A DNA stretch of 64,000 nucleotides from Paramesorhizobium deserti. Lineage in GTDB: Bacteria > Pseudomonadota > Alphaproteobacteria > Rhizobiales > Rhizobiaceae. The translations under genes and the position numbers were made by a program. The stretch is taken from the NCBI RefSeq assembly GCF_001558695.1, contig NZ_LNTU01000001.1, positions 620,001-684,000 on the forward strand, in the 5' to 3' direction. The number at the start of each line of letters is the position of its first letter. Positions within the stretch are counted from its first letter, which is position 1. Of the stretch, positions 3,147 to 53,218 are shown piece by piece. Below the pieces are notes generated by a model. The model saw only the letters and a program-made list of their open reading frames with translations. It made no database searches and was not told the origin of the DNA.

Positions 3147-3177
3147 CTACTGACATGCCGCACACGTCCACAACAGA

Positions 3178-3936: not shown

Positions 3937-4994
3937 GCCTCCAATGCGCCGGGGCGCCTGGCAACGGCCGAAGGGCGCTTGCCCAAAAGCTTGAGCAGAT
4001 CGTCGCCGCGCCTGACATAGCGCAGGCTGCGCCGCGTCAGGATGCGGCCGGCCTGGGGAGCAGTCAGCGTGACATCGCCCGACGGGTCGCCCGGCCGCGT
4101 AACGATGGTGACGAGCCTGTCCCCCTCGCCCACCTCGTCGCCGGGAACGACATGGTAGAGAACCATGCCGCCTTGTGGCGCGCGCACCATCTCGACATTG
4201 GCGAGCGGCGTCACCGGGCCGTCAAAGGCGACGGCAAGCGTTTCGCCGTCATCCTTCACCACGCCACGGTGCACGAGGAAACGATAGAGCCCCTGTGCAT
4301 CCGACCGGCCGGTTGCGAAATCGACATCGGCAAGGCCGCGAAACTCGACCGTGGTGACGGCGCGGCGCTTCATGTCACGGGTGTCGACCGGCATTTGCAG
4401 CACCGGATAGGCACAGGCTTCCTCAAATGCGGCATCGGCGGTGGAATCCCAGGCGAGGATCGCCTTCGAGCCGAGTGCTACGGCAAGATCGGTCATCTCC
4501 GGCAGGAAATCCTGATGGATATAGAGATAGTTCTCGCTCTGGTCGTCGCAGTGCAGATCAAGAATGATCTCATGCGGGAGCGCGAGGCGCAGGAGCGCCG
4601 CCTTCAACCTCTCGGCAAGCGGCAGCGCTGCATCGATTTGCGGCAGGCTGGAGACATCGAAATCCGGCAGAAGCGGGAAAGCCCGGTTGAAATTGGTCTG
4701 GGTGAAGAGCTCGAAGCGCCCAAGATGTTGATAGGCCTGCCACTGGTTCGAGCCGATCGGATTGGCCTGCGGAACGATGGTGATGTTGCCGGTGATACGC
4801 CCTTCTGCCTCGGCCTTCTCCAGAAGCGGAACAAGGAAATGCAGCGCCGCCTGACCGGGAAGCTCACCGCCGTGCAGCGCCGATTGCAGATAGGCCGTCG
4901 GTGCATTCGCATCGCGGCCTTCAAAACGCAGGACCCGCAATTCGATGGCATTACCAGGCACATCGCCGGGAAGGGTGATTGTCTCAGTCTTCAT
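3933..4994 (-). CDS. Succinylglutamate desuccinylase/aspartoacylase-family metallohydrolase
   Basis: This 353-residue protein belongs to the AstE/AspA branch of M14 zinc carboxypeptidases, which remove acyl groups from amino acids. Zinc ligands are visible as ALHGGELPG (His and Glu, about residue 40) and DLHCDD (about residue 145). The C-terminal third, with GGMVLYHVVPGDEVGEGD, is a beta-barrel-like domain common in this group. The true substrate is unknown because no arginine-succinyltransferase genes are nearby. Its last bases overlap the HAD gene start, and the pair lies just downstream of pgi on the same strand. Confidence 0.85.
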   Translation of the reverse strand: MKTETITLPGDVPGNAIELRVLRFEGRDANAPTAYLQSALHGGELPGQAALHFLVPLLEKAEAEGRITGNITIVPQANPIGSNQWQAYQHLGRFELFTQTNFNRAFPLLPDFDVSSLPQIDAALPLAERLKAALLRLALPHEIILDLHCDDQSENYLYIHQDFLPEMTDLAVALGSKAILAWDSTADAAFEEACAYPVLQMPVDTRDMKRRAVTTVEFRGLADVDFATGRSDAQGLYRFLVHRGVVKDDGETLAVAFDGPVTPLANVEMVRAPQGGMVLYHVVPGDEVGEGDRLVTIVTRPGDPSGDVTLTAPQAGRILTRRSLRYVRRGDDLLKLLGKRPSAVARRPGALEA

Positions 4995-5047
4995 GATCTC
5001 TTTCGATCCACATCATGTTGTTCTTGGCCCACAGGCGCGTGGCAAAT

Positions 5048-6703
5048 TTATCGGACAGCCTCGCGCCGCTCCAGCAGATGGGCGACAAGTCCTTGCGTGG
5101 AGGCGTCGCGCCCCTCGGCGGATTTTTCCCCCGAGACCACAGGCAGAAGCTCTGTCGCCAGTTCCTTGCCGAGTTCCACGCCCCATTGATCGAACGCATT
5201 GATGCCGAACAGCTGCGCCTCGACGAAGACGCGATGTTCGTAGAGCGCCACCAGCCGGCCGAGCGCATAGGGGTCGAGCAGATCATGGACGATGGTGAGC
5301 GACGGCCGGTTGCCGGAGAAGACGCGGTGCGGTGCCAGCCGGTCGACCTCCGCCTCATCCATGCCCTTGGCGGCGAGCTGCGCCTTGGCTTCGGCCAGGG
5401 AGCGGCCCTTCATCAACGCTTCCGACTGCGCCAGGCAATTGGCGAGCAGCATCTGATGCTGATGAACGAGATGCGGCTCGTGCCCCTTCACCGCGACGAT
5501 GAATTCCACCGGAATGACATCCGTTCCCTGATGCAGAAGCTGGAAAAAGGCATGCTGGCCATTGGTGCCGGGCTCGCCCCACACCACTGGACCCGTTGGG
5601 CCCGACACCGGCCTGCCGCCCAGCGTGACGCTCTTGCCGTTCGATTCCATGTCGAGCTGCTGGAGATAGGCTGGAAGCCGGGCGAGGCGCTGGTCATAGG
5701 GAATGACGGCGCGGCTGCCATAGCCTGAGATGGCGCGGTGCCAATAGCCGATCAGGCCGAGCATCACGGCCAAGTTCTTATCGAGCGGCGCATCGCGGAA
5801 ATGCACGTCCATCGCATGAGCCCCCTCAAGGAAGCGGCGGAAATTCTCCGGTCCGATGGCGATCATCAGCGGCAGGCCGATGGCCGACCAGATGGAGTAG
5901 CGTCCGCCGACCCAATCCCAGAAGCCGAACACCCGGTCCGGTGCGATGCCGAAAGCCGCCACTTTGTCGAGTGCCGTGGAAACGGCGGCGAAATGCGCCC
6001 CGACCGCCGTCTCGCCCAGCGCTTCGGCCACCCATTTGCGCGCCGTCTGCGCGTTGGTCATGGTCTCGATGGTGGTGAAGGTCTTGGACGCGACGATGAT
6101 CAGCGTCGTCGCCGGATCGAGGGCTTGAAGCGTGTCGGCGATATGGGCGCCATCGATATTGGAGACGAAATGGGCGCGCGGACCGTCATGATAGGGAGAG
6201 AGCGCCAGCGTCGCCATCACGGGGCCGAGATCCGAGCCGCCGATGCCAATATTGACGATATCGGTGATCGGCTTGCCGGTCGCGCCCTTTATCGAGCCGT
6301 CGCGGATGCCATCGGCGAAGACGGCCATGCGGTTCAGCACTTCCTGAATGCCGGGCAGCACGTTCTCGCCGTCGACGAGAATTTTTTCGGAGGTCGAGTC
6401 CCGAAGAGCAACGTGCAGGACGGCACGGCCTTCCGAATTGTTGATCGGCTCACCCGCGAACATGGCAGCGCGGCGGCCTTCCACATCGGCGGCCACGGCC
6501 AGATCCCTCAGAAGGCGCATCGTCTCGTCATTGACCAGGCATTTCGACCAGTCGAGCAGCAGATCATCGAGATTAAGGGAATAGCGCGAGAAGCGCTTGG
6601 GATCAGAAGTGAAGGCGGCGCGCATATCCTTCGGCGCGCCACTTTGCCAATGGTCTTTCAATGCGGCTACGGCTTCGTCGACTTGCTGCTCGTTCCTGCT
6701 CAT
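5048..6703 (-). CDS. pgi: Glucose-6-phosphate isomerase
   Basis: Pgi interconverts glucose-6-phosphate and fructose-6-phosphate in the cytoplasm. The 551-residue protein carries the sugar-phosphate loops GIGGSDLGP and VASKTFTT, the signature [14 protein letters not shown], the catalytic-glutamate stretch [14 protein letters not shown] and the C-terminal signature [11 protein letters not shown] with the ring-opening lysine. The chosen ATG starts MSRNEQQ and is preceded by CGGGAG. The frame runs 40 codons further upstream but that part is not Pgi-like. Length fits alphaproteobacterial orthologues. It is probably transcribed alone or together with the two downstream genes. Confidence 0.96.
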
Positions 6704-6763
6704 GACGCATACTCCCGAATCGAAAAGGTTTCGCGACACTAGATCAATATGCCTGAAAACGGG

Positions 6764-6800
6764 AAGGCCGAAGCGAGGAAATCTCCCCGCCCCGGCCTTT
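6764..6800 (-). terminator. Probable terminator of the dehydratase gene
   Basis: Read on the minus strand, AAGGCCG and CGGCCTT pair around a GC-rich interior and are followed by CCCGTTTTC. The structure lies 40 bases past the stop codon of the dehydratase gene and before pgi. The T-run is short, so termination strength is uncertain. Confidence 0.45.
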
Positions 6801-6840
6801 CGCTGAATAGTGCGGCGGAGCACTCCACCGCGAGATCGGT

Positions 6841-8640
6841 TCAGTGATTATCGCGCGGCAGGCCCATGTTCTGGGCGATGCGCTGGTATTTGACCGCAGG
6901 CTTCAGCACCATGCCTTCGGAAAGCTGGTCGATCATGCCGCGCTGGATCTCCTGCCATGGCGTCTGATGGGCGGGATACTGATAGCCGCCTGCGGCCATG
7001 AGTTCGGCACGGCGCTGCGCCAGTTCCTCGTCGGAGATGAGGATGTTGGCTGCGCCCTTTTTCAGGTCGATGCGGATGCGATCACCCGTCTTCACCAACG
7101 CCAGCCCGCCATTGGCGGCGGCTTCGGGCGAAGCGTTGAGGATCGACGGCGAACCCGAGGTGCCGGACTGGCGGCCGTCACCCACGCATGGCAGGGCGTG
7201 CACGCCCTTCTTGATGAGGTGGGCGGGCGGCTGCATATTGACCACTTCCGCGCCGCCGGGATAGCCGATCGGGCCGGAACCGCGCATGATCAGAATGGAA
7301 TTCTCGTCGATGCCGAGCGCCGGATCGTCGATCTTGGCATGATATTCCTCAGGCCCGTCGAAGACATGCGCGGTGCCCTCGAAGGCATCCGGGTCTTCCG
7401 GGTTCGACAGATAGCGGTCGCGGAATTCCGGCGAGATGACGCTGGTCTTCATAATCGCGCTGTCGAAGAGATTGCCCTTCAGGTTGATGAAGCCGGCCTT
7501 CTCCTTCAGCGGATCGGCGAAGGGGCGGATGACCTTGGTATCAAGATTTTCCGCGTTGCGGCAGTTTTCGCCGATGGTCTTGCCGTTGACCGTCAGCGCA
7601 CCCGGATGTGGCAGCTTCCCGGCCATCATCAATTCGTTGACCACCGCCGGCACGCCGCCGGCATGGTGGTAGTCCTCGCCCAGATATTCACCGGCCGGCT
7701 GGAGATTGACCAGCAGCGGGATCTCGTGGCCGACCGCCTGCCAGTCGTCGTTGTCGAGCTTGACGCCGAGATGGCGGGCGATGGCGTTCAGATGGATCGG
7801 CGCGTTGGTCGAGCCGCCGATGGCCGAGTTGACGACGATGGCGTTCTCGAAGGCCTCGCGCGTCATGATATCGGAGGGGCGCAGGTTCTCCTGCACCATC
7901 TCGACGATGCGCCGGCCCGTCTCATAGGCGATCTGGCCGCGCTCGCGATAGGGCGCGGGAATGGCCGCGCCACCCGGCAGCTCCATGCCGAGCGCCTCGG
8001 CGAGCGAGTTCATCGTCGTTGCCGTGCCCATCGTGTTGCAATAGCCGACAGAGGGGGCGGAAGAGGCGACGATATCAATGAATTCCTCATAGTCGATCTC
8101 GCCGGCGGCAAGCCGCTCGCGCGACTTCCAGACGATGGTGCCCGAGCCAGTACGCTCGCCGCGATGCCAGCCATTGAGCATTGGGCCGACAGAAAGGGCG
8201 ATGGCCGGGATGTTGACGGTGGCCGCGCCCATCAGCATGGCCGGCGTCGTCTTGTCGCAGCCGACCGTCAGCACCACGCCGTCGAGCGGATAGCCGTAAA
8301 GCACCTCGACAAGGCCAAGATAAGCCAGGTTACGATCCAGCGCGGCGGTAGGGCGCTTGCCGGTTTCCTGGATCGGATGGACCGGAAATTCCAGCGCCAC
8401 GCCGCCGGCGGCCGCGATGCCGTCGCGCACGCGCTTGGCGAGTTCCAGATGGTGGCGGTTGCAGGGCGAGAGATCGGATCCTGTCTGGGCGATACCGATG
8501 ATCGGCTTTCCCGAGCGCAATTCATGGCTCGTCAGCCCGTAATTCAGATAACGCTCGAGATAGAGCGCGGTCATGCCCGGATTGTCGGGATTATCGAACC
8601 ATTCCTGCGAACGGAGCGTTCTGGTCTTCTTTTCACTCAT
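6841..8640 (-). CDS. IlvD/Edd-family sugar-acid dehydratase, closest to xylonate dehydratase XylD
   Basis: This iron-sulfur dehydratase of 599 residues resembles Caulobacter XylD in its N-terminal stretch ([21 protein letters not shown]) and in [20 protein letters not shown]. It would convert D-xylonate, or a related aldonate, to the 2-keto-3-deoxy acid. Cluster ligands are visible in [17 protein letters not shown] and GYCNTMGTA. The catalytic serine region is [15 protein letters not shown]. The ATG beginning MSEKKT has GGTGAGG upstream, so the additional upstream codons are not used. Substrate choice (xylonate versus arabinonate or galactonate) is inferred from remembered similarity and is not certain. 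Confidence 0.85.
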
Positions 8641-8827
8641 GATTTTTGCTTTCCTCACCCGCCGTTTCCCGGCCTCGCCTTTGCCGCCATGGATAGGGCA
8701 AACGGCGTCAATCGGCAACAAGTATTACTAAATGACTTTTGGATCACCGCGCGCCATTTGGACGCGCCGGAGACGCCGCGAGACCGGTACATGGCAAAAT
8801 TCGGCCGGAAATTCTACATTACCCGTC

Positions 8828-9298
8828 ATGACTGAACCCAGCATGGACTTGACAGGAGAAGAGCGGATCGCCGCGCCGCGCGAGGCGGTCTGGCGGGCGC
8901 TGAATGATCTCGAGACGCTGAAAGCCTGCATCCCGGGATGCGAATCGCTGGAAAGGCGCTCATTCACCGAAATCGACGCCGCCTTGGGCATGCGATTCGG
9001 TCCGCTAAAGGTGAGGTTCCAGGGCGAACTGGAGCTCTCCAATCTCAACCCGCCTGTTTCCTACACGATCTCAGGCGCGGGCAAGGGCAGCATCGCCGGC
9101 TTCGTCCATGGCAGCGCCGATGTGATGCTGATCGAGGAGGGCAGCGAAACGGTGCTGACCTATGTGATCAGAGGCAATGCCGGCGGCAAGATCGCACAGC
9201 TCGGCACGCGGCTCATCAGCGCCAGCTCGCGGAAGCTGGCGGACCGGTTTTTCTCCAATATCGGCAAGGCGGCGAGCAATGGCTGGTCCAAGACATAG
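8828..9298 (+). CDS. SRPBCC-family protein, CoxG-like
   Basis: The 156-residue protein has the CoxG pattern: MDLTGEERIAAPREAVWRAL at the start, CIPGCESLE, and a C-terminal helix SASSRKLADRFFSNIG. CoxG proteins have a START-like fold. Some are membrane-anchored chaperones for CO dehydrogenase/xanthine-dehydrogenase-type molybdoenzymes, but others stand alone. No molybdoenzyme genes occur in this window. This copy lacks a C-terminal membrane anchor. The start could be 8828 or, five codons later, 8843; neither has a strong ribosome binding site. It lies just upstream of preT and might be part of the pyrimidine locus. Confidence 0.78.
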   Translation: MTEPSMDLTGEERIAAPREAVWRALNDLETLKACIPGCESLERRSFTEIDAALGMRFGPLKVRFQGELELSNLNPPVSYTISGAGKGSIAGFVHGSADVMLIEEGSETVLTYVIRGNAGGKIAQLGTRLISASSRKLADRFFSNIGKAASNGWSKT

Positions 9299-9307
9299 AT
9301 GTCATTC

Positions 9308-9323
9308 TTGACCAGTTGATAAA
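9308..9323. promoter_or_regulatory. Candidate RutR operator upstream of preT, site 1
   Basis: TTGACCAGTTGATAAA keeps a perfect left half of the known RutR palindrome TTGACCAnnTGGTCAA, while the right half has two mismatches. It lies about 130 bases upstream of preT. A weaker copy begins 20 bases further on, about two helical turns away. Confidence 0.55.
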
Positions 9324-9327
9324 AAAT

Positions 9328-9343
9328 TTGACCTTTTGAGAAA
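9328..9343. promoter_or_regulatory. Candidate RutR operator upstream of preT, site 2
   Basis: TTGACCTTTTGAGAAA retains TTGACC and a degenerate right half. Its spacing of exactly 20 bases from site 1 would put both on the same helix face. Alone it would not be convincing; it is reported because of the pairing. Confidence 0.35.
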
Positions 9344-9451
9344 ATATGTCATCCTGCCCATAACGGACAAGGCGAAAGAATATCGCCACCGGGAAACAGA
9401 GCGCAGCGCTTCAAGGAACGGCGCGGCTCAAGCAAATGGGAGATGCACCTC

Positions 9452-15153: not shown

Positions 15154-16604
15154 CAAAGGTCATCAAGGGCGGCACGATCATCGCCGCCGACCGCAGCTAC
15201 AAGGCGGATGTGCTGATCGATGGCGAGCGGATCGCGGCGATCGGCGACGATCTCACCGGTGACGAGGTGATCGACGCGACCGGCTGCTATCTGATGCCGG
15301 GCGGTATAGACCCACATACACATCTGCAGATGCCGTTCATGGGCACCTATTCCTCCGACGATTTCGACACGGGCACGGCGGCGGCGCTGGCCGGCGGCAC
15401 GACGATGGTGGTCGATTTCGTGCTGCCCGGCGCGGAAGGCGGGCTGCTCGACGCGCTGCAGGAATGGTTCCAGAAGGCGGGCAAGGCGCGCACCGACTAT
15501 TCCTTCCACATGGCGATCACCGGCTGGAACAAGCAGATCTTCGACGAGATGCCTGAGGTGGTGGAACGCGGGATCAATACCTTCAAGCATTTCATGGCCT
15601 ATAAGGGCGCGCTGATGGTGAACGACGACGAGATGTTCGCCTCGTTCCAGCGCTGCGCCGAGATCGGCGCCATGCCGCTCGTCCATGCCGAAAACGGCGA
15701 TGTCGTCGCGCATCTCCAGCAGAAGCTGCTTGCGGAGGGCAATAACGGTCCCGAGGCGCATGCCTATTCCCGCCCGCCGGAGGTGGAAGGCGAGGCCACC
15801 AACCGCGCAATCATGATCGCCGATCAGGCGGGCGTTCCGCTCTATGTGGTGCATGTCTCGTGCGAGGAGAGCCATGAGGCGATCCGGCGCGCGCGGCAGA
15901 AGGGCATGCGGGTCTTCGGCGAGCCGCTCGTCCAGCACCTGACCCTCGATGAAAGCGAATATAAGAACGAAAACTGGGACTATGCGGCGCGGCGCGTTAT
16001 GTCGCCACCGTTCCGCGACAAGCGGCATCAGGACGGGTTGTGGGCGGGGCTCGCCGCCGGCAGCCTGCAGGTGGTGGCGACGGACCATTGCGCCTTTACC
16101 ACCGAGCAGAAGCGCTTCGGCCTTGGCGATTTCACCAAGATTCCCAATGGCACGGGCGGGCTCGAGGACCGGCTGCCGGTGCTATGGACCAAGGGCGTGC
16201 GCACCGGGCGGCTGACGCCGAACGAGTTCGTCGCCGTCACCTCCACCAATATCGCCCACATCCTCAATATCTATCCCCGGAAGGGTGCGATCCTGCCGGG
16301 ATCGGACGCGGATATCGTTATCTGGGATCCGGAAGCGAAGAAGACGATCTCGGCGAAGACGCAGAAATCGGCGATCGATTACAATGTCTTCGAGGGCATC
16401 GAGGTGACCGGACTGCCGCGCATGACGCTGTCGCGCGGGCGGATCGCCTATCGGGATGGCGAGGTTCTGGCGGAAACCGGCGACGGCCGCTTTATCGAGC
16501 GCGAGCCGCACGCGCCGGTCAATCGCGCTCTTTCGACGTGGAAGGAACTGGTGGCGCCGCGCAAGGTGGAACGCAAGCCCGAACATATGCCGGCGGGGGT
16601 CTGA
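15150..16604 (+). CDS. pydB: Dihydropyrimidinase (D-hydantoinase)
   Basis: This cyclic amidohydrolase (484 residues) opens dihydrouracil or dihydrothymine to the N-carbamoyl-beta-amino acid, the second step of reductive pyrimidine breakdown. The binuclear metal site is visible: GGIDPHTHLQMPF (His-x-His, about 57-61), the carboxylated lysine in NTFKHFMAYKGAL (about 150), LVHAENGD (about 183), YVVHVSCEE (about 239) and ATDHCAF (about 314). The start overlaps the DUF559 stop; AAAGGGAG lies upstream. The gene is directly coupled (TGATG) to the downstream ABC ATPase. Confidence 0.95.
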   Translation: MTKVIKGGTIIAADRSYKADVLIDGERIAAIGDDLTGDEVIDATGCYLMPGGIDPHTHLQMPFMGTYSSDDFDTGTAAALAGGTTMVVDFVLPGAEGGLLDALQEWFQKAGKARTDYSFHMAITGWNKQIFDEMPEVVERGINTFKHFMAYKGALMVNDDEMFASFQRCAEIGAMPLVHAENGDVVAHLQQKLLAEGNNGPEAHAYSRPPEVEGEATNRAIMIADQAGVPLYVVHVSCEESHEAIRRARQKGMRVFGEPLVQHLTLDESEYKNENWDYAARRVMSPPFRDKRHQDGLWAGLAAGSLQVVATDHCAFTTEQKRFGLGDFTKIPNGTGGLEDRLPVLWTKGVRTGRLTPNEFVAVTSTNIAHILNIYPRKGAILPGSDADIVIWDPEAKKTISAKTQKSAIDYNVFEGIEVTGLPRMTLSRGRIAYRDGEVLAETGDGRFIEREPHAPVNRALSTWKELVAPRKVERKPEHMPAGV

Positions 16605-43584: not shown

Positions 43585-44745
43585 CTATTTCCCCTGCCGC
43601 GCTTTCACGAACCGATCCATCGCCGCGAAGGAGAAGGCATCGATCGGCAGGTGCGTGCCACCGTCGAGCGCCAAATCCGCGAGGATCTCGCCGACGACAC
43701 TGGTGAACTTGAACCCGTGCCCCGAGCAAGGCGAGGCCACGACGATACGGGGATCGGACGGCAGGAGGTCCATGAGGAAATCCTCGCTCGGCAGCATCGT
43801 ATAGCGGCAGGTGATGGCATTGACGCGCAAGCCGGCCGCAGCGGGAAGACGGCGGGCGATGAAATCGTCAAGCAACGACAGATCGGCATCGTTGACTGGC
43901 GGATTGGGCTGGTTCGGGTCGATCTCCTCGAGGAAATGGGCGTGCTTGCCGATCTTGACGCCATCAGGCCCGATGACGGGGAAGCCGAAGAAGGAGCCGA
44001 CCTTACCCTCATCGCGGATGAAGGCCGGCATACGGCCGAGCGCGGTGGCGAAGCCGTCGCGCGGCTGATACCACGCCACGACCTGGCGGATCGGCACGGC
44101 GAGCCCGCGCAATTGCGGCACCAGCTCGGTGATCCATGAGCCGGTGGCGACCACCACCTTGCCGACGCGATAGCGCGCCGTTTCTGTGGCGATCTCGACG
44201 CTACCGTCACCGGGCTCGATTGCCGTCACCTTCTCGCCGAAATGCAGGGCCGCGCCGTCCGTTGCCGCCAGCCGGAGATAGCCGAAGATCGCCGCTTCCG
44301 GCTTCAGGAACCCGCCCTCGGGATCGAGGACCGCGATCTCGTCAGCATCGAGCGCAAAGGCGGGAAAGCGCCTCAGCATCGCCTCCCGGTCGAGCACCTC
44401 CGAGGCGAGCCCGTGCAGCTCGGCGGAGGCCCGCGTGCCCTTGACGATCTTATCCTCGGGGCGACCGATCTGGAGCACGCCGGTGATGGTGAGCACTTGT
44501 TCGCGCAGGCGCTGCTCCATCGCGCGCCAATTGGCATAGGCGCGCTGCAGCAGCGGCACATAAGACGGGTCCTCGAAATAGCCGAGCCGGATCAGCCTGG
44601 AATCACCATGGGAGGAGCCCTGCGCATGGGCGGGAAAGGCGGCCTCCAGGCCGATCACCCTGACGCCGCGCGCGGCCAGATGCGCGACCGCGGCGCTGCC
44701 CATGGCGCCAAGGCCGATGACGGCCACGTCGAATTGATTGGACAT
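43585..44745 (-). CDS. solA: FAD-dependent amine oxidase, N-methyl-L-tryptophan/sarcosine oxidase family
   Basis: This 386-residue monomeric flavoenzyme oxidises secondary amines or N-methyl amino acids, giving an aldehyde and hydrogen peroxide. It has the FAD-binding VIGLGAMGSAAVAHLAARG (about 8-26), GSSHGDSRLIRLGYF (about 43-57) and the covalent flavin cysteine in SPCSGHGFKF (about 343). ATG 44745 is preferred over GTG 44751 because a G-rich site lies 5-6 bases upstream. It is the last gene of the HutC-type locus, so its substrate may be the imported compound or a derivative. The symbol reflects family only. Confidence 0.85.
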   Translation of the reverse strand: MSNQFDVAVIGLGAMGSAAVAHLAARGVRVIGLEAAFPAHAQGSSHGDSRLIRLGYFEDPSYVPLLQRAYANWRAMEQRLREQVLTITGVLQIGRPEDKIVKGTRASAELHGLASEVLDREAMLRRFPAFALDADEIAVLDPEGGFLKPEAAIFGYLRLAATDGAALHFGEKVTAIEPGDGSVEIATETARYRVGKVVVATGSWITELVPQLRGLAVPIRQVVAWYQPRDGFATALGRMPAFIRDEGKVGSFFGFPVIGPDGVKIGKHAHFLEEIDPNQPNPPVNDADLSLLDDFIARRLPAAAGLRVNAITCRYTMLPSEDFLMDLLPSDPRIVVASPCSGHGFKFTSVVGEILADLALDGGTHLPIDAFSFAAMDRFVKARQGK

Positions 44746-44778
44746 GTTCACCCCCCAAGGATTCGTCGGCTAAGTCGG

Positions 44779-46278
44779 TCAATCAGCGCCGGGCGCCGCA
44801 GAGGCGGCCAGAAGATCACGCGCCGCGGCCATATCCTTAGCCAGCGGCCGGTCGTCGGCATAGCGGGGCAGGATGTCGCGCAGGGCGCGATAGACTACAT
44901 CCGTGCCCTTGGCGCGTGAAACCTTGCCGGGATGGAGATCCTGCGCCTGCGCCGCCGCCAAAAGCTCGATAGCGAAGATCTGCTCGGCATTGTCGAGCAC
45001 GGCCAGAAGCTTGTTCGCCGCCGCCGTCGGATGCGCCAGGAAATCTTCCTGCAGGGCGGAGGTGACGCCGCCGTCGAGGCTGGCCGGCGCGCCGAGGCGG
45101 CGGTTTTCATTGCTGAGTGCGGCGGCCGTATATTGCGCGATCATGAAGCCGGAACCGGCACCCGGATCATCGGCGAGGAAAGCCGGCAGGCGGCTCACCA
45201 GCGGATTGACCAGACGGTCGATGCGACGCTCGCTCATGCCGGATATCTGCGCGATAGCGACCACCAGCATGTCGAGCGCCTGCGCCAGCGCCGGTGCGAC
45301 GGCATGCGCCTCGGACCAGACGAGCGGCTCCTCCGGCGTGCCGGCAACAGCGGGATTGTCGGTGACCGATGCAAGCTCGCGATCAACGGTCTTGGCGGCG
45401 AAATCGAAGCCGTCGCGCGCCGCGCCATGGGCATGCGGGATGGCACGCAGGCTGAGCGCATCCTGCGTGCGCGCGCCGGCATCGGCCGCGACGAGCCCGC
45501 TTCCCTCAAGCCTTTTCCGCAAGGCGCTGCCGACGGTCTCGATGCCCTTCGAGGGCCGAAGCGCCAGCACGTCCTCGCCAAAGGCGGGCATCTGTGCGCC
45601 GAAGGCCTCAAGCGTCAGCGCGGCGATGGCATCCGCCCATTCGAGCAGGCGCTCGGCGCGGGAAAGCGCGACGCAGGCAAGGCCGGTGGAGCATGAGGTG
45701 CCGTTGACGAGGCTCAGGCCTTCCTTCGCCTCCAGCACGAGAGGCTGAAGGCCGATCGCGGCCAGCGCCTCGGTGCCGCCCATCTGCCGACCGGCCAGAT
45801 GTGCCGTCCCCTCGCCGATCAGCACCAGCGCGATATGCGCCATATGGGTGAGATAGCCGGCGGAGCCTTTCGAAGGGACATCGGGAATGCAATCATGATC
45901 GAGCAGCGCCAGCAGGGCGCGAACGATCTCGGGCCGGATGCCGGAATGGCCGTGGGTGAAATTGTTGATCTGGGCGGCGATGATGGCGCGCACCTCGCGC
46001 GGCGGCAGAAGCGGGCCGACGCCGCAGGCATGGCTCATCAGGATATTGCGCGAAAGGCGGCGCTGCGAGGCGCGGTCCACCACCGTATCGGCGAGCGCGC
46101 CGACGCCGGTGTTGACCCCATAGGCGCGGATGCCACGGTCAACCAGCGCGGCCACGATCCGCGCCGCATGATCGATCCTCTCCCACGCACCGGCACCAAG
46201 CTCCAGCCGAGCGCCCCCGGCAATGGCGGCGATCGCTCGCCAATCGAGCGTCTTTTCCAGCGTGATCGTGCGCATCAT
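44779..46278 (-). CDS. Histidine/aromatic ammonia-lyase (HAL/PAL) family protein lacking the canonical Ala-Ser-Gly triad
   Basis: The 499-residue protein follows HutH end to end: AYGVNTGVGALADTVV with the catalytic tyrosine (about residue 53), NNFTHGHSGIRPEIV, ALSLRAIPHAHGAARD-like and NENRRLGAPASLDGG segments. HAL proteins normally contain GSVGASGDLAPLAH, whose Ala-Ser-Gly cyclises to the MIO electrophile. Here the segment reads KGSAGYLTHMAHIAL, three residues shorter, and ASGD is missing. QEDH of HutH is QEDF here. It may be a divergent lyase or aminomutase, or act without MIO. Its start overlaps the ATPase stop as TGATG, tying it to the importer. Confidence 0.85.
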   Translation of the reverse strand: MMRTITLEKTLDWRAIAAIAGGARLELGAGAWERIDHAARIVAALVDRGIRAYGVNTGVGALADTVVDRASQRRLSRNILMSHACGVGPLLPPREVRAIIAAQINNFTHGHSGIRPEIVRALLALLDHDCIPDVPSKGSAGYLTHMAHIALVLIGEGTAHLAGRQMGGTEALAAIGLQPLVLEAKEGLSLVNGTSCSTGLACVALSRAERLLEWADAIAALTLEAFGAQMPAFGEDVLALRPSKGIETVGSALRKRLEGSGLVAADAGARTQDALSLRAIPHAHGAARDGFDFAAKTVDRELASVTDNPAVAGTPEEPLVWSEAHAVAPALAQALDMLVVAIAQISGMSERRIDRLVNPLVSRLPAFLADDPGAGSGFMIAQYTAAALSNENRRLGAPASLDGGVTSALQEDFLAHPTAAANKLLAVLDNAEQIFAIELLAAAQAQDLHPGKVSRAKGTDVVYRALRDILPRYADDRPLAKDMAAARDLLAASAAPGAD

Positions 46279-47048
46279 CACTTCCCGAACGTGCCGATGA
46301 ACTGCCGGAAGGCGGGCGATCCGCCCTTGCCGAAAAGCTCTTCGGGTGGGCCGTCGCTGTCGATCTCGCCGGAGCGCATGAAGATGACGCGGTTGGAGAC
46401 ATTGCGGGCGAAGCCCATCTCGTGGGTGACGACCAGCATGGTCATCCCCTCCTCCGCGAGGCTGCGCATGACGCGCAGGACCTCGCCGACGAGCTCGGGA
46501 TCGAGCGCCGAAGTGGGCTCATCGAAGAGCATCACTTTCGGCTTCATTGCGAGCGCACGGGCGATCGCCGCGCGCTGCTGCTGGCCGCCCGAGAGGTGGG
46601 CGGGATAGGCGTGGCGCTTTTCGGCGATGCCCACTTTTTCAAGAAGCGCCTCGGCTTCAGCGATACACTCGGCTCGCGGCCTTTTCAGCACATGCACCGG
46701 GCCCTCGATGACATTATCGAGAATGGTCATGTGAGACCAGAGATTGAAGGACTGGAAGACCATGCCGAGCTCGGCCCGGATGCGGTCGACCTGCTTGCGG
46801 CTGGCCGGTACAGCGTGGCCGTTCTTCATCGTCATCTCGATGCGCTCACCATCGACGACGATCTCCCCCTGATCAGCGATCTCCAGAAGGTTGATACAGC
46901 GCAGGAAAGTGGACTTGCCCGAACCGCTGGCGCCGAGCAGCGAGATGACGTCGCCATCATGCGCGTCGAGCGAAATGCCGCGCAGCACCTCATGGGCGCC
47001 AAAGCTCTTGTGGATGTTGCGGACGGATAGCCGGGTGGCCGCAGCCAT
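46278..47048 (-). CDS. Polar amino acid ABC transporter ATP-binding protein
   Basis: The 256-residue ATPase of the HisP/OccP group has Walker [18 protein letters not shown] (about 35-51), Q-loop [13 protein letters not shown], signature [15 protein letters not shown], Walker [15 protein letters not shown] and [10 protein letters not shown]. It drives uptake of a polar or basic amino acid or opine-like compound. The ATG (MAAATRLS) has GGAGGGG upstream; in-frame codons further upstream lie in the permease gene. It overlaps the ammonia-lyase-like gene. Confidence 0.93.
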
Positions 47049-47077
47049 GTTCCCCTCCATTTTGCTGATGGGCGTCG

Positions 47078-47800
47078 TCATCGGGATACCGGAAGGCCGC
47101 CGGGAACGAGAGGCGCGGCGGCGCGCCGATGCGGCGAAAGATAATGCTCGAGCAGCGCCATCGCCTGCAGGATCAGGAAATTGAGCACGAGATAGATGAT
47201 CGCCGCGCAGAGAAAGACTTCCATCGTGCGGTAGGTCTGCGAGATCAGCCGCTGCGCGACGCCGGTCACCTCCCAGACGGTGACGAGGCTGGCGAGCGCG
47301 GTGGATTTCACCATCATCACGATCTCGGTCGAATAGGCCGGCAGCGCATGACGGAAGGCGATCGGCGCGATGATGCGGCGCACCAGCAAGAAGCCGGACA
47401 TGCCGATGGCGCGTGCCGCCTCGATCTCGCGCGGCGGGACGGCGCGCAGGCCGAAGCGGAAGATTTCCGCCGTGTAGCCTGCCGTGCAGAGCGCCAGCGA
47501 CAGGACGGCGCAGACGAAGGGCTCGCGCAGCGCCGGCCAGACGAAAGAGTGGCGGATGAAGCCGAACTGGCCGAGACCATAGAAGACGAGGAACATCTGG
47601 ATGAGCAGCGGCGAACCGCGAAAAACGAAGATATAGCCCCGTGCGAACCGGCTGAGGATGGGATTGCCGCCGACCCGCATCCAGACGATCAGGATGGCGA
47701 GAAAGCCGCCGAACAACACCGAGAGGGAGAACAGGCCAAGCGTCACCGGCAGGGCGGCCAGCAGGGTTTTCATGGTCTGGAAAAGGAAAGGAAAATCCAC
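47078..47800 (-). CDS. Polar amino acid ABC transporter permease (HisM-like)
   Basis: This 240-residue permease has about five membrane helices, the N-terminal [20 protein letters not shown] and the coupling loop [20 protein letters not shown]. The start is GTG with a strong AAGGAGGA upstream, yielding VDFPFLFQ. It pairs with the next permease (gap 11 bases) to form the importer channel. Confidence 0.92.
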
Positions 47801-47811
47801 CGTATCCTCCT

Positions 47812-48534
47812 TCAGATCTGGCCGATGCCGGCCGGCATGCTGCGGCTGGCGCGCCGTTCGGCACGCGCGAACAGACGGTCGGACATGCTGGTCAGCACCA
47901 GATAGAGACAGCCGCCGGCGATGAAGAACAGGAAATATTGCCGCGTGGAACCGGCGGCGACCTGGCTGGTGCGCATCAGATCGGCGAGGCCGGTGACGGA
48001 CACCAGTGCGGAATCCTTGAGACTCAACTGCCAGACATTGCCGATACCCGGAATGGCGAAACGCAGGACCTGCGGCATGATGATCCGGCGGAAGCGCAGG
48101 AACCGGTGCATGCCGATCGCCTCCGCGGCCTCCAGTTCCCCCTTCGGGATCGCCAAAAAGGCTCCGCGATAAACCTCCGCCTGGTAAGCGCCGCAGATGA
48201 GACCCACAGCCAGGGCGCCGGCGATGAAGGACGGCATGCCCAGAAATCCCTCGAAGCCGAAATAGGCGCCGATGGCGGTGACGGCGCTGGAGCCGCCGAA
48301 ATAGACGAGATAGATGATGAGCAGCTCGGGCACGCCGCGAAAGATGGTGGTGTAGACGCCGCCGGCTGTTCTGATGGCCCGGCTCTGCGAAAGCTTGGCG
48401 GCGGCAACGATGGCACCCAGCACGGCGCCGAGCAGGAGTGCCGCAAGCGTGACGCACAGCGTCATCAGGGCGCCCATCAGGAGAAGCCCGCCCCAGCCGG
48501 TCTGCCCGAAACCGAGTGTCTCGACTAACCACAT
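47812..48534 (-). CDS. Polar amino acid ABC transporter permease (HisQ-like)
   Basis: This 240-residue permease of the same family has [20 protein letters not shown] (first helix), [16 protein letters not shown] and the coupling loop [20 protein letters not shown]. The ATG begins MWLVETLG and has GGGAACT upstream, a modest site. A 257-base gap with a composite repeat separates it from the binding-protein gene, so this operon too is interrupted by a repeat after its first gene. Confidence 0.92.
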
Positions 48535-48596
48535 ATCAGAGTTCCCATGTTGCCGGAGCAGTTGACGCTTTGATGAACCGTCGAGCGGAATAACAG

Positions 48597-48752
48597 CCCC
48601 CTTTGCCCCGCCGGGCATCTCCCCCACAAGGGGGGAGATTAATCCATGATTTTCGCTTTCGCTAATCACCACCGCTGCAAATGAGGCACCGCCGTCAATG
48701 TCAGCCAATCTCCCCCCTTTGTGGGGGAGATGGCCGGCAGGCCAGAGGGGGG
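48597..48752. repeat. Composite two-armed palindromic repeat inside the amino acid importer operon
   Basis: A unit CCGCCGGGCATCTCCCCCAC with the complement-like GGGGGGAGATT (48602-48641) is repeated in inverted orientation at about 48700-48752, ending GGGGGAGATGGCCGGCAGGC. It has the same architecture and size as the element at 31357-31517, and both lie within ABC importer operons. Confidence 0.85.
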
Positions 48753-48791: not shown

Positions 48792-49634
48792 TTAAGGCGT
48801 CACGTCCGTCTTGAACCACTTCATCGACAGCTCCTTGACGACGCCGTCGGCAAGGGCGGCCTTGATGGCGTCGTCGAGCATCGCCTTGAGCTCGGGATCG
48901 GACTGGCGCACGCCCAGCCCCTCGCCGATGCCGAAGATGGTGCCGCCGATTTCGGGGCCGCTGAAGGCCAGCTCGCCATTGGCCTTCTCGAAAGCGGAGT
49001 TCAGATAGACCGCGTCGTCGAAGGCGAGATCGATGCGGCCGGTTTCCAGATCGAGATCGCGCTCCGCGCCGGTCTTGTATTCGCGGATCGTGGCGATATC
49101 GCCGAAATTGTCATAGATGAACTTGGCATAAACGGTCGCCGCCTGGATGCCGATGGTGGCGCCCTTGAAGGCGGTACGCATGGCTTCGACGCTATCCTTG
49201 CCGCCGCTCAGGTCGGGCTCCATCTTGACCACCGTCCCCGTGCCGGGCGCATTGGTGTAGGAGCTATCCTTCGATGCGGCGAAGGCCGCGTGGGTGTGAG
49301 CGTAGGGAATGGAGAAGTCGATGATCTTCTTGCGCTCCTCGGTGATCGACAGCGCATCCATGATGACGTCGAACTTGCCGGCGTTCAGGCTGGTGATCAT
49401 GCTGTCCCAATCGGAGGCGACCAGCTTGCACTCCACCTTCATGTGATCGCAGAGATATTTAGCCAGCTCCGGCTCGAAGCCGCCGAGCGTGCCATCCGGA
49501 TTGGTCATATTCCACGGGGCGTAGGCGCCTTCCAGCGTGATGGTGACGGTCTTCCACTCCTTGGCCTGAGCCGGAGACCATGCACCCGCGGCCAGCGCAA
49601 CGGCGCCAGCCAGCAGCATCTTACAGGCATTCAT
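48792..49634 (-). CDS. Polar amino acid ABC transporter substrate-binding protein
   Basis: This 280-residue periplasmic protein of the SBP_bac_3 family has a signal peptide (MNACKMLLAGAVALAAGAWS, cleavage near AQA). The mature part has TITLEGAYAPWNMTNPDG, LGGFEPELAKYLCDHM, CKLVASDWDSMITSLNAGKF and DVIMDALSITEERK, as in lysine/arginine/ornithine and octopine binders. An aromatic residue where HisJ-type proteins contact the ligand (YAPW) is present. The ATG has AGAGGAG upstream. It is the first gene of the operon, divergent from the HutC-like regulator. Confidence 0.92.
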   Translation of the reverse strand: MNACKMLLAGAVALAAGAWSPAQAKEWKTVTITLEGAYAPWNMTNPDGTLGGFEPELAKYLCDHMKVECKLVASDWDSMITSLNAGKFDVIMDALSITEERKKIIDFSIPYAHTHAAFAASKDSSYTNAPGTGTVVKMEPDLSGGKDSVEAMRTAFKGATIGIQAATVYAKFIYDNFGDIATIREYKTGAERDLDLETGRIDLAFDDAVYLNSAFEKANGELAFSGPEIGGTIFGIGEGLGVRQSDPELKAMLDDAIKAALADGVVKELSMKWFKTDVTP

Positions 49635-49728
49635 CGATATTCTCCTCTTGGTGGTTCGGAAACTTCCTTGATGCGCCGATCTGCGCCGGCTTGGCAGCGA
49701 CTGGGGAAGCCCGGTCGGGTGCTTGAAC

Positions 49729-49742
49729 TTGTATAGGGTACC
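49729..49742. promoter_or_regulatory. Candidate HutC-type operator, site 1
   Basis: TTGTATAGGGTACC lies in the divergent region between the binding-protein gene and the GntR/HutC regulator. Its first nine bases recur at 50684. An AT-rich GGTACCATATG continuation gives partial symmetry. It is inferred to be bound by the adjacent regulator. Confidence 0.4.
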
Positions 49743-49890
49743 ATATGTCAATTATTATGGTATGCAAGAGCAAAGTATCGGATGGGAGCAGATTCTGCTT
49801 CTGCTCAAAAATCAGGCGGCGAGGAAACCGGGGAGCGGCGGCGCGAGGCAATTTCCGGGCACCGATCGGGATAACAGGAGGAAGAAATCC

Positions 49891-50637
49891 ATGCCGAACG
49901 AGAGGGGTAGCGAGAAGACCGGGGATGGCGCTCCGCTCTACGCCGGCGTGAAGCAGATGATCCTCGACCGCATTCACAGCGGCGAATGGCCTCCGAAGCA
50001 TCGCGTCCCCTCGGAGAACGAGCTCGTCGCGGAACTGGGCGTAAGCAAGATGACCGCCAACCGCGCGTTGCGCGAACTGGCGAGCGAGGGCGAACTCGTC
50101 CGCATCCAGGGCGTCGGCTCCTTCGTGGCAGAGCGCAAGGGTACTTCGGCGCTTTTCGAGGTGCGCAACATTGCCGACGAGATCGCGGAAAGGGGGCATT
50201 CGCACCTCGCCTCGGTGGTTCTGCTCCGGGAAGAAGACGCCTCCCCCTCCGTCGCGGATGCGCTGGATCTGCCGATCGGCGCAAAGGTCTTCCATTCCCT
50301 GATCGTCCATAGCGAGAACGACGTTCCCGTGCAGATCGAGGACCGCCATGTCAATCCGGAAGCCGCGCCCGCCTATCTCGAGCAGGATTTCACCGCCATC
50401 ACACCCAATGCCTATCTGACGCAGGAGGCCCCGCTCAGCGGATCCGAACATATCGTCGAGGCCACCCTGCCCGAGCCCTGGGAATGCAAGCTCCTGGTCA
50501 TCCCGCGCAACGAGCCATGCCTGACGATCCGCCGGCGCACATGGTCCTCGAAACAGGTGGTCTCCTTCGCCCGCCTCGTCTATCCCGGCACGCGCTACCG
50601 GCTGGAGACGCGCAGCGGCAAGGCCGTGGAGGAGTGA
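49891..50637 (+). CDS. GntR-family transcriptional regulator, HutC subfamily
   Basis: The 248-residue protein has an N-terminal winged HTH (GEWPPKHRVPSENELVAELG, VSKMTANRALRELASEGELV) and a UTRA ligand domain with FEVRNIADEIAERGHSH, VFHSLIVHSENDVPVQIEDR and PCLTIRRRTWSS. It is very close in pattern to HutC, the urocanate-responsive repressor of histidine use. No urocanase or other hut genes are present, so it may sense a related product. The ATG is preceded by AACAGGAGGAAG. It is divergent from the importer and ammonia-lyase-like operon. Confidence 0.92.
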   Translation: MPNERGSEKTGDGAPLYAGVKQMILDRIHSGEWPPKHRVPSENELVAELGVSKMTANRALRELASEGELVRIQGVGSFVAERKGTSALFEVRNIADEIAERGHSHLASVVLLREEDASPSVADALDLPIGAKVFHSLIVHSENDVPVQIEDRHVNPEAAPAYLEQDFTAITPNAYLTQEAPLSGSEHIVEATLPEPWECKLLVIPRNEPCLTIRRRTWSSKQVVSFARLVYPGTRYRLETRSGKAVEE

Positions 50638-50697: not shown

Positions 50698-50878
50698 TTT
50701 GGTGCTGGCCCGCGGGAGCGGCAGCGACATCCGGCATATCCAGCGGGAACTCAACCTGATCCATATTGTTCGGTAACCGAAGCGTGTCCGGCTACAGCGA
50801 TTGTCAAAGACCGGTTTTGACTGCCATCATGGCGATGCGGGTGATGCCTTAAAGAACAGTTTGGACGCAACGCTCAAC

Positions 50879-53218
50879 ATGCAATTCTCAAGGAGATTGG
50901 CTTTGTTGATAAATCTTACCGCAATTCTCTTCCTCATCATCGCAATTGCCCTTGGTATCGGTGGCTCGTGGCTCGTGGCCCTCGGCGGAAGCTGGTATTA
51001 CATCATTGCGGGCATTGGCTTTTTTCTGACGGCAATTTTCCTCTTCAGGAGAAGCGCCGCCGCCTTGTGGATCTATGCGCTCGTCATCCTGGGCTCGCTC
51101 GGCTGGGCGATCTATGAAGTCGGCTTCGACTGGTGGCAGTTGGGCACGCGTGGCGGCGTCATCGTGCTGCTTGGTCTCTGGCTGTTAATCCCATGGATTT
51201 GGAGGAGGACGGGCGGCGTCCTACCGCTTGCGATCGCCGTGCTCGCCTCGCTGGCGGTGGCCGGATATTCCATATTCCAGGATCCCTACGATATCGAGGG
51301 ATCGCTGCCGACGGAGCAGGTGGCTGCCAATCCGGACCTCGGCGGCAATGTGCCGCCCGGCGACTGGCATCAATATGGCCGCACGCCCTATGGCCAGCGC
51401 TATTCCCCGCTCAACCAGATCACGCCGGAGAATGTCGGCGGGCTGCAGGTCGCCTGGACCTACCAGACCGGCGACATCAAGCAGCCGGAGGATGTCGGCG
51501 AGACCACATATCAGGTGACGCCACTGAAAGTGCGCGACACGCTCTATCTCTGCACGCCACACAACTGGGCGATCGCCCTCGATGCGGCGACCGGCAGGGA
51601 AAAATGGAAATACGACCCGAATGTCGGCTTCAACCCGGATCGCCAGCACCAGACCTGCCGCGGCGTCACATATTATGCCGATCCGGCGGCAACGCCTGGC
51701 CAGCCCTGCGCCGAGCGCGTCTATCTGCCGACCTCGGACGCGCGGCTGATCGCGCTCGATGCGGCAAACGGCCAGGTCTGCACATCCTTTGCCGACAATG
51801 GCGCGCTGCATCTCGAAGAGGGCATGCCGTACAATCCGGCCGGCTATTATTATTCAACCTCGCCGCCCGTGGCGGTGGCGGGCAAGATCATCGTCGGCGG
51901 CGCCGTCAATGACAATTATTCGATCCATGAGCAGTCCGGCGTCATCCGCGCTTTCGATATCAACACGGGTGCATTGATCTGGAACTGGGATTCGGGCAAT
52001 CCGGAGCAGACAGCGCCATTGCCTCCCGGCCAGAAATATACCGCCAACTCGCCCAACAGCTGGTCTGTATCGAGCGTGGACGAGAATCTCGGGCTCGTCT
52101 ATGTGCCGCTCGGCAACAAGGTACCCGACCAGCTCGGCATGGACCGCAGCGAGAATGTAGAGAAATATTCCTCCTCCATCGTCGCGCTCGACATCAACAC
52201 CGGCCAGGTGCGCTGGGTGAGACAGACGGTGCATCACGATCTCTGGGACATGGACGTGCCGGCCCAGCCGGTGCTCCTCGATATCACCGGGGAGGACGGG
52301 ACGGTGGTGCCGGCGCTGGTCGGCCCGACGAAGCAGGGCGACATCTATGTGCTCGACCGGCGAACCGGCGAGCCGATCATCCCGATCAAGGAAGTCCCCG
52401 CCCCCGGCGGCGCGATACCGGAGGATTTCACCGCTCCGACGCAACCTGTCTCCGGCCTCAGCTTCGAACCGCCGCCGCTGACGGAGAAGGACATGTGGGG
52501 CATCACGCTGTTCGACCAGCTCGCCTGCCGGATAGAGTTCCACCGGCTGAAATATGAGGGCCGCTATACGCCGCCCTCGCTTGAGGGAACGATCGTCTAT
52601 CCCGGCAATTTCGGCGTGTTCAACTGGGGCAGCGTGGCGGTCGATCCCGTGCGGCAGGTGATGTTCGGCATGCCGACCTATCTCGCCTTCACCTCGAAGC
52701 TGGTGCCGCGATCCGAGGTGCCGCCGCCCAGCGAAGGCACCAAGGGCAGCGAACAGGGGCTCAACCGCAATGAGGGCGCACCCTATGCCGTACTCCTCAA
52801 TCCCTTCCTGTCACCTCTCGGCATTCCCTGCGAGGCGCCGCCTTGGGGCTATGTCGCCGGGGCGGATCTGAGAACCGGCAAGATCGCCTGGAAGCACAGG
52901 AACGGCACGACGCGCGACATGACGCCGATCCCGCTGCCGTTCAAGGTCGGCGTCCCCGGCATCGGCGGCCCGATGATCACGGCGAGCGGCGTCGTCTTCC
53001 TCGGCGCAACGGTGGATGACTACATCCGCGCCTATGATCTGACGACGGGCAAGCAGCTATGGGAGGCGCGCCTGCCGGCGGGTGGCCAGGCGACACCAAT
53101 GACCTATGCCATGGAAGACGGCCGGCAGTATGTCGTCATCGTGGCGGGCGGCCATGGCTCTGTTGGCACCAAACCGGGCGACTACGTCATCGCCTATACG
53201 CTGCCGGACAACCAATAA
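50879..53218 (+). CDS. gcd: Membrane-bound PQQ-dependent glucose dehydrogenase
   Basis: Gcd oxidises aldoses to aldonolactones at the periplasmic face and reduces ubiquinone. The 779-residue protein has about five N-terminal membrane helices (residues 5-135, including GGSWLVALGGSWYYIIAGIG) and a PQQ beta-propeller starting about DWHQYGRTPYGQRYSPL. Typical segments are TLYLCTPHNWAIALDAATG, TVHHDLWDMDVPAQP, TLFDQLACRIEFH-like and GGHGSVGTKPGDY at the C terminus. ATG 50879 (MQFSRRLA) matches E. coli Gcd in layout. TTG 50903, 7 bases after AAGGAG, is a serious alternative. PQQ synthesis genes are not in this window. Confidence 0.94.
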   Translation: MQFSRRLALLINLTAILFLIIAIALGIGGSWLVALGGSWYYIIAGIGFFLTAIFLFRRSAAALWIYALVILGSLGWAIYEVGFDWWQLGTRGGVIVLLGLWLLIPWIWRRTGGVLPLAIAVLASLAVAGYSIFQDPYDIEGSLPTEQVAANPDLGGNVPPGDWHQYGRTPYGQRYSPLNQITPENVGGLQVAWTYQTGDIKQPEDVGETTYQVTPLKVRDTLYLCTPHNWAIALDAATGREKWKYDPNVGFNPDRQHQTCRGVTYYADPAATPGQPCAERVYLPTSDARLIALDAANGQVCTSFADNGALHLEEGMPYNPAGYYYSTSPPVAVAGKIIVGGAVNDNYSIHEQSGVIRAFDINTGALIWNWDSGNPEQTAPLPPGQKYTANSPNSWSVSSVDENLGLVYVPLGNKVPDQLGMDRSENVEKYSSSIVALDINTGQVRWVRQTVHHDLWDMDVPAQPVLLDITGEDGTVVPALVGPTKQGDIYVLDRRTGEPIIPIKEVPAPGGAIPEDFTAPTQPVSGLSFEPPPLTEKDMWGITLFDQLACRIEFHRLKYEGRYTPPSLEGTIVYPGNFGVFNWGSVAVDPVRQVMFGMPTYLAFTSKLVPRSEVPPPSEGTKGSEQGLNRNEGAPYAVLLNPFLSPLGIPCEAPPWGYVAGADLRTGKIAWKHRNGTTRDMTPIPLPFKVGVPGIGGPMITASGVVFLGATVDDYIRAYDLTTGKQLWEARLPAGGQATPMTYAMEDGRQYVVIVAGGHGSVGTKPGDYVIAYTLPDNQ

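Follow-up and report, generated by a model that had tools for sequence, protein, structure and literature searches.

What does a protein of the HutH (histidine ammonia-lyase, HAL) family do once the residues that form its cofactor are gone? The question is raised by a gene in a stretch of 64,000 nucleotides from Paramesorhizobium deserti (positions 620,001 to 684,000 of contig NZ_LNTU01000001.1), here called the window, within which positions are counted:

44779..46281, minus strand: HutH-like lyase of 500 amino acids without the 4-methylideneimidazole-5-one (MIO) cofactor (Lyase_aromatic and hutH profile searches)

Ammonia is a poor leaving group, and in HAL proper it is the MIO group that activates it. 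We propose that the window lyase is a cofactor-independent enzyme of the HAL fold whose substrate is most likely hercynine (Nα,Nα,Nα-trimethyl-L-histidine, the betaine of histidine), from which it would release trimethylamine and urocanate, and we put the probability of this reading at roughly 0.53.

The open reading frame is intact, with a GTG start at 46281, ATG codons immediately after it, and a stop included at 44779. Pfam Lyase_aromatic spans residues 13-468 (484 bits), in agreement with the first-pass annotation of this DNA, which had recognized a full-length HutH-family homologue, and the strand is the minus strand. The TIGR01225 hutH model gives 470.7 bits, below its curated NCBIfam cut-off of 539.15, and identity to the HutH of Pseudomonas putida (HAL, PDB 1b8f) is 38-40%. 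An AlphaFold model based on 29 sequences (predicted local distance difference test, pLDDT, 89.9; predicted template modelling score, pTM, 0.92; residues 403-410 below 50) predicts a HAL fold with a TM-score of 0.92 to 1eb4, HAL being the closest structure in the PDB and ergothionase scoring 0.88-0.89. The annotated relatives that we examined all carry the name histidine ammonia-lyase. The same genome holds a second, canonical HutH with the Ala-Ser-Gly (ASG) triad on another contig (C23), between hutI and hutG, which the first-pass annotation had missed.

Aligned with P. putida HAL, the cofactor loop of the window lyase has 12 residues where HAL has 15, and ASG is absent from it, just as had been read from the sequence at the outset. 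The loop and the active-site positions that bear on the argument are given here, with conservation among 104 distinct sequences that share the short loop:

45835..45870, minus strand: shortened loop KGSAGYLTHMAH, residues 138-149, replacing KGSVGASGDLAPLAH (alignment with P. putida HAL)
46120..46122, minus strand: Tyr54 (HAL Tyr53), kept in 104/104
46030..46032, minus strand: His84 (HAL His83), kept in 104/104
45703..45705, minus strand: Asn193 (HAL Asn195), kept in 103/104
45463..45465, minus strand: Gln273 (HAL Gln277), kept in 104/104
45454..45456, minus strand: Leu276 in place of HAL Tyr280, Leu in 104/104
45445..45447, minus strand: Arg279 (HAL Arg283), kept in 104/104
45301..45303, minus strand: Ala327 in place of HAL Phe329, Ala in 84, Pro in 19, Gly in 1 of 104
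45130..45132, minus strand: Tyr384 (HAL Val386), Tyr in 104/104
45046..45048, minus strand: Glu412 (HAL Glu414), kept in 104/104

The catalytic tyrosine loop, YGVNTGVGALAD, is present, as was first noted, and the change of QEDH to QEDF is real, but not every member of the type has this Phe (F in 83, H in 18, M in 2 and I in 1 of the 104).

The short loop is not a peculiarity of one gene. A scan of a genome collection found at least 542 relatives of the window lyase, and in all of the best 80 (63-86% identical) the loop reads GS[AV]GYL and ASG is missing, so that the suggestion of collecting homologues has been answered in favor of a conserved clade feature. These 80 come from Phyllobacterium, Rhizobium, Agrobacterium, Mesorhizobium, Aminobacter, Shinella, Kaistia and other genera, the nearest among the matches listed being P. 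phragmitis and P. salinisoli (85-86%). Decay, which the first-pass annotation had already doubted, and a frameshift are excluded by the intact reading frame and by the retention of the loop in all 80. In a drawn sample of 398 Pseudomonadota genomes, 23 (the window's own included) have a lyase match of at least 46% identity, and the short loop is present in all 22 loci of 45% identity or more read from the other genomes; ASG was found in 7/7 loci fetched for matches of at most 43%, these 7 being a minority of the weaker matches. Among 219 homologous rows, each of the 131 that reach 44.5% identity has the short loop, and those below this value comprise 74 with ASG, 13 with another loop and a single short loop. 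A degenerate loop pattern run over 199 genomes did not discriminate, as 196 of them gave a match and matches to the reversed control were widespread too.

For the residue counts HAL numbering was used and near-identical rows were counted once (132 short-loop rows giving 104, 61 ASG rows giving 56, and 12 with another loop, on the ergothionase side), with five aminomutase-like or other lyases of Streptomyces, Persicobacter and Pseudoalteromonas left out as outgroup. The sequences were classed by loop, and thus the absence of the triad in the short-loop class holds by definition while the other sites are independent of it. At position 280 Tyr is found in all 56 ASG lyases (61/61 before clustering) and Leu in 12/12 ergothionase-side sequences, and Phe329 is kept in 56/56 distinct ASG lyases. 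The position of HAL Val386 separates the classes fairly well, with V in 53 and Y in 3 of the 56 ASG lyases, and K in 11 and A in 1 of the 12 on the ergothionase side (K383 in PDB 6s7j); Lys at this place would, on these alignments, be a defining mark of ergothionase. We take Tyr53 of HAL to be the catalytic base and the other kept residues to bind histidine. The pattern would then be one in which the residues on the MIO side (ASG, Tyr280 and Phe329) have changed jointly, and the residues taken to act as base or to bind histidine have been retained. Of the three explanations first offered for the gene, a different triad is unsupported, as the loop has lost all of the triad instead of carrying other residues in its place; a different chemistry is the best supported, because the MIO-side residues change together while the presumed base and histidine-binding residues stay; and a protein that purely binds a ligand is less likely, because the active-site residues are conserved.

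Based on these residues, we put forward the following hypothetical mechanism. The substrate would be a histidine that carries a good leaving group from the start, its alpha-amino group being trimethylated. Tyr54, acting as the base, would remove the beta-proton and trimethylamine would leave unaided to give urocanate. The MIO group would be dispensable, since a trimethylated nitrogen requires base catalysis only, as with ergothionase acting on ergothioneine. The neighboring ABC transporter would import the substrate, and the urocanate formed would enter the ordinary hut pathway and relieve repression by the neighboring HutC-type repressor. We infer the substrate and products, the inducer, and the part that each residue plays in catalysis, and hercynine in particular is suggested by the HAL-like imidazole site, by betaine-type transporters in some lineages, by HutC, and by the link to urocanase. 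The hint in the first-pass annotation that N-methylated amino acids might be substrates looks right.

The expected fate of the product can be followed in the genomes. HutU (urocanase) is present in 154 of the 398, namely in 23/23 with the short-loop lyase and in 131/375 of the others (Fisher p 1e-10, uncorrected for kinship). When 8 genomes reached via Agrobacterium and Rhizobium loci are added to the 23, HutU exceeds its cut-off in 31/31 lyase genomes, and thiourocanate hydratase does so in 3/31, all of one genus, which argues for urocanate rather than thiourocanate as the product. In those three another lyase homologue is found about 5 kb away from the hydratase, and the short-loop lyase is also present in a separate cluster. 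In the two hydratase clusters fetched (L204 and L205) the lyase loop reads TGSIGCADIG; the L205 lyase has 6s7j as its best PDB match, and its neighbors pass the cut-offs for ErtD, ErtE and thiourocanate hydratase, with an S-Me-THD protein also present. These genomes thus have the short-loop lyase and, as a separate system, an ergothioneine-type pathway. The window's own genome has no thiourocanate hydratase over the cut-off (one HutU-like gene scores 691.6 bits against 930), no ErtD over the cut-off, and for TIGR03105 matches below the cut-off only; the sole HutU-like gene found in it lies on contig C23 with the canonical HutH. A hydantoinase- or allantoinase-like gene in the window (15156-16499; contig 635156-636499) gives 213 bits with the ErtD model, the cut-off being 600. 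In another genome (G590), an ASG lyase directly follows genes that pass ErtD (746 > 600) and ErtE (575 > 520) (L206, 5200-9562, plus strand), with no thiourocanate hydratase over the cut-off in the genome; this cluster could represent a further pathway for a histidine derivative.

In the window the lyase is part of an ordered set that runs from a divergent HutC-type repressor through a binding protein, two permeases and an ATPase to the lyase and a flavoenzyme resembling N-methyltryptophan oxidase:

49891..50637, plus strand: divergent HutC-type GntR/UTRA repressor, probable start ATG 49891 (TIGR02018, 304.3 bits, above the cut-off of 220)
48792..49751, minus strand: periplasmic binding protein of family 3, Lys/Arg/Orn-like, likely start near 49634 (TIGR01096, 217.8 bits, below the cut-off of 256.35)
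47812..48534, minus strand: ATP-binding cassette (ABC) permease of HisQ/ArtQ type (profile searches; searched as 47812-48690)
47129..47833 (as searched), minus strand: ABC permease of ArtM/HisM type (profile searches)
46278..47099 (as searched, true start slightly inside), minus strand: ABC transporter ATPase of histidine type, its end overlapping the lyase start (HisP the best NCBIfam match, 337.6 bits, below the cut-off of 466)
43585..44751, minus strand: flavin adenine dinucleotide (FAD) amine oxidase of the N-methyl-L-tryptophan oxidase/sarcosine oxidase family, next downstream of the lyase (NF008425, 413.7 bits, above the cut-off of 257)

The flavoenzyme may demethylate methylated histidine. 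A guessed HutC palindrome had 0 matches in the window. A membrane-bound pyrroloquinoline quinone (PQQ) glucose dehydrogenase-type gene lies beside the operon (50801-53218), and of the neighborhood loci compared only the two closest, both Phyllobacterium, have such a match.

Neighborhoods elsewhere were compared in two sets, one comprising the loci of the best 80 homologues with neighbors within 6 kb, where some stretches end at contig ends so that the neighbor counts are lower bounds, and the other comprising 15 further loci, hand-chosen from 14 of the 22 other genomes plus Sinorhizobium meliloti (L117). HutC lies within 6 kb in 65/80 loci of the first set and 5/15 of the second, and an N-methyltryptophan-oxidase-like gene is near the lyase in 34/80 and 0/15, respectively. 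At least three hut catabolic genes are found in the stretch in 27/80 loci, and at least three hut genes in 12/15. In Rhizobium johnstonii 3841 the homologue, RL_RS30855, is annotated as hutH and adjoins a full hut cluster that has its own hutH. The transporter near the lyase is of the histidine type in 52 of the 80 loci and of the OsmF/OpuAC betaine type in 9, none of those sought being seen in 19, and in the set of 15 it is of the ProXWV type in 7 and of the histidine type in 5, with none in 3. The best NCBIfam matches of the ATPases and binding proteins in L043, L117 and L148 are betaine, proline or choline families, with a cut-off passed by only two ProV-type ATPases (L117 and L148). S. meliloti HutXWV is reportedly also a betaine uptake system. 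In two loci (L148 and L149) the short-loop lyase immediately follows a ProXWV-type transporter and precedes an ASG hutH. This is the gene order of the hutXWV-hutH1 module of P. fluorescens SBW25, as described in PMC8871633, with the short-loop lyase in the place of hutH1. The lyase of these SBW25-like modules is about 51% identical to the window protein, whose own transporter is of the histidine type and whose hut cluster is on another contig. The link to HutH1 is a putative one, drawn from the loop type and gene order of L148 and L149. PA5093 of P. aeruginosa, a possible HutH1, is called hutG in the one paper found with that tag, and the tag was not used.

A HAL-fold enzyme that works without MIO has been published, although the first-pass annotation did not mention it. 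Ergothionase, according to a 2026 study (PMC13405746), lacks the MIO cofactor despite its similarity to HAL and to the phenylalanine and tyrosine ammonia-lyases. The enzyme of Treponema denticola (PDB 6s7j/6s7q) resembles the short-loop type in its HAL fold, in its lack of MIO, in having Leu for Tyr280, and in keeping Tyr53, Gln277, Arg283 and Glu414. HutH of P. putida, the best structural match, has the same presumed base and histidine-binding residues as the window lyase (Tyr53, His83, Asn195, Gln277, Arg283 and Glu414) and differs in having the ASG triad, Tyr280 and Phe329. In a tree of 55 chosen rows, for which support was also computed without the columns of the loop and of the other traits, the short-loop type forms one clade (100/100), the window lyase lies outside the clade of 6s7j and its relatives, and ergothionase forms another clade (100/99) with lyases that have GSIGAAD-like loops. 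The two clades are sisters in the best tree, with support of 95/91 when all columns are used and 92/76 when those of the traits are left out, and several ergothionase-side rows are long branches. A single loss of MIO is favored over two losses by these trees, with approximately unbiased (AU) tests leaving the alternatives unrejected (p 0.22, 0.13, 0.21). The short-loop type is a clade separate from ergothionase and perhaps its sister. Filing the window lyase directly as an ergothionase was rejected in view of the separate clade, the different loop, and the lack of a thiourocanate hydratase over the cut-off.

The GSIGAAD-like lyases (Rhizobium, Paracoccus and others; L114, L115 and L118-L125) also have no ASG and have Leu for Tyr280, and they differ in belonging to the ergothionase clade, in having Asn195 mostly replaced, and in their neighbors. 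Two of them, from Paracoccus aminophilus pAMI4 (L115, 4963-9332) and R. leguminosarum Ta6 (L114, 5472-9392), are annotated as histidine ammonia-lyase and have short-chain dehydrogenase/reductase (SDR) and MaoC genes as neighbors, together with a coenzyme A (CoA)-transferase in the former and hutC in the latter, and the feature lists show no further hut gene; these lyases perhaps act on other betaines, with CoA-dependent degradation. In a further genome (L158 of G308, about 3160-9400) a short-loop and a GSLGAAD-loop lyase share one hut cluster beside an OsmX-like binding protein, which suggests two different substrates for the two lyases.

Several observations weigh against hercynine as the substrate. 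The transporter is of the amino-acid type in the window, where its parts pass no specific cut-off, and in 52/80 loci, and the adjacent hutXWV of P. fluorescens takes part in histidine uptake, as stated in a review (PMC8871633). Of the 19 loci with no sought transporter within 6 kb, 13 also have neither HutC nearby nor a hut gene in the stretch (10 Mesorhizobium, 2 Aminobacter and 1 Rhizobiales). Kinship among the genomes raises the HutU count, and for most genomes no more than three candidates were scored in the wide searches. A route for methylamine nitrogen is unsupported, with no type III glutamine synthetase over the cut-off in the window's genome, and the downstream amine oxidase is superfluous to the scheme. 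Finally, Agrobacterium radiobacter is named as a bearer of ergothionase in the 2026 study (PMC13405746), and in 8 genomes (7 Agrobacterium, 1 Rhizobium) the 17 lyase matches are 8 short-loop and 9 ASG lyases with none ergothionase-like, the short-loop type being the only MIO-less lyase found.

This last point, together with the sister position in the best tree and the fact that ergothionase is the known MIO-less enzyme of the fold, speaks for the alternative that the window lyase removes trimethylamine from ergothioneine or ergothioneine sulfonate. We nevertheless consider this unlikely, as the ergothionase loop, SSIGEGDITTLSH in 6s7j, is one residue short and not three, as Tyr stands where 6s7j and 11/12 ergothionase-side sequences have Lys, and as His83 and Asn195 are kept in the short-loop type and not consistently on the ergothionase side. 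Moreover, 28/31 genomes have no thiourocanate hydratase over the cut-off, the window's genome has no ErtD over it, and in the three genomes with a hydratase this accompanies the different lyase. The downstream oxidase would find a purpose if the substrate were partly methylated histidine (Nα,Nα-dimethyl or Nα-methyl), with di- or monomethylamine expelled and the monomethyl form demethylated by the oxidase, whose gene comes next after that of the lyase in the window and lies close by in the 34 loci mentioned. In the absence of a cofactor, amines with fewer methyl groups leave less readily, as a matter of general chemistry, two different betaine-type transporters stand beside the lyase in other lineages, and the oxidase is not near the lyase in 46/80 and 15/15 other loci, so that we hold this to be somewhat less probable still.

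A catalytically dead paralogue, one that binds histidine or urocanate or tunes the canonical HutH via mixed tetramers, is improbable, given five active-site residues kept in 104/104 sequences and a sixth in 103/104, and given that the window gene is accompanied by a HutC and a transporter of its own, on a contig other than that of hutH. The possibility that histidine is still deaminated, by a cofactor-free or differently built electrophile, would accord with the intact histidine-binding residues and with histidine uptake by the adjacent hutXWV in P. fluorescens (PMC8871633), but the absence of the triad and the replacement of Tyr280 and Phe329 leave it very little room.

We return, therefore, to hercynine. 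In the open-access literature we found no published hercynine lyase, and the search for a trimethylamine lyase acting on it led only to PMC13405746. We suggest, at about even odds, that a second cofactor-free class of the HAL fold exists beside ergothionase, made up of hercynine trimethylamine-lyases that are annotated as HutH and feed the hut pathway, and that it would explain both HutH1 of P. fluorescens, which is dispensable for histidine, and the betaine transporters linked to hut genes. With the annotation as histidine ammonia-lyase, genome-based metabolism probably assigns the wrong reaction to these genes. If the proposal is true, soil and plant bacteria would be able to turn histidine betaine into glutamate by a direct route that releases trimethylamine, the two cofactor-free classes would reveal which residues of the fold serve MIO and which serve histidine, and the purpose of a misnamed “second histidase” gene could be explained.
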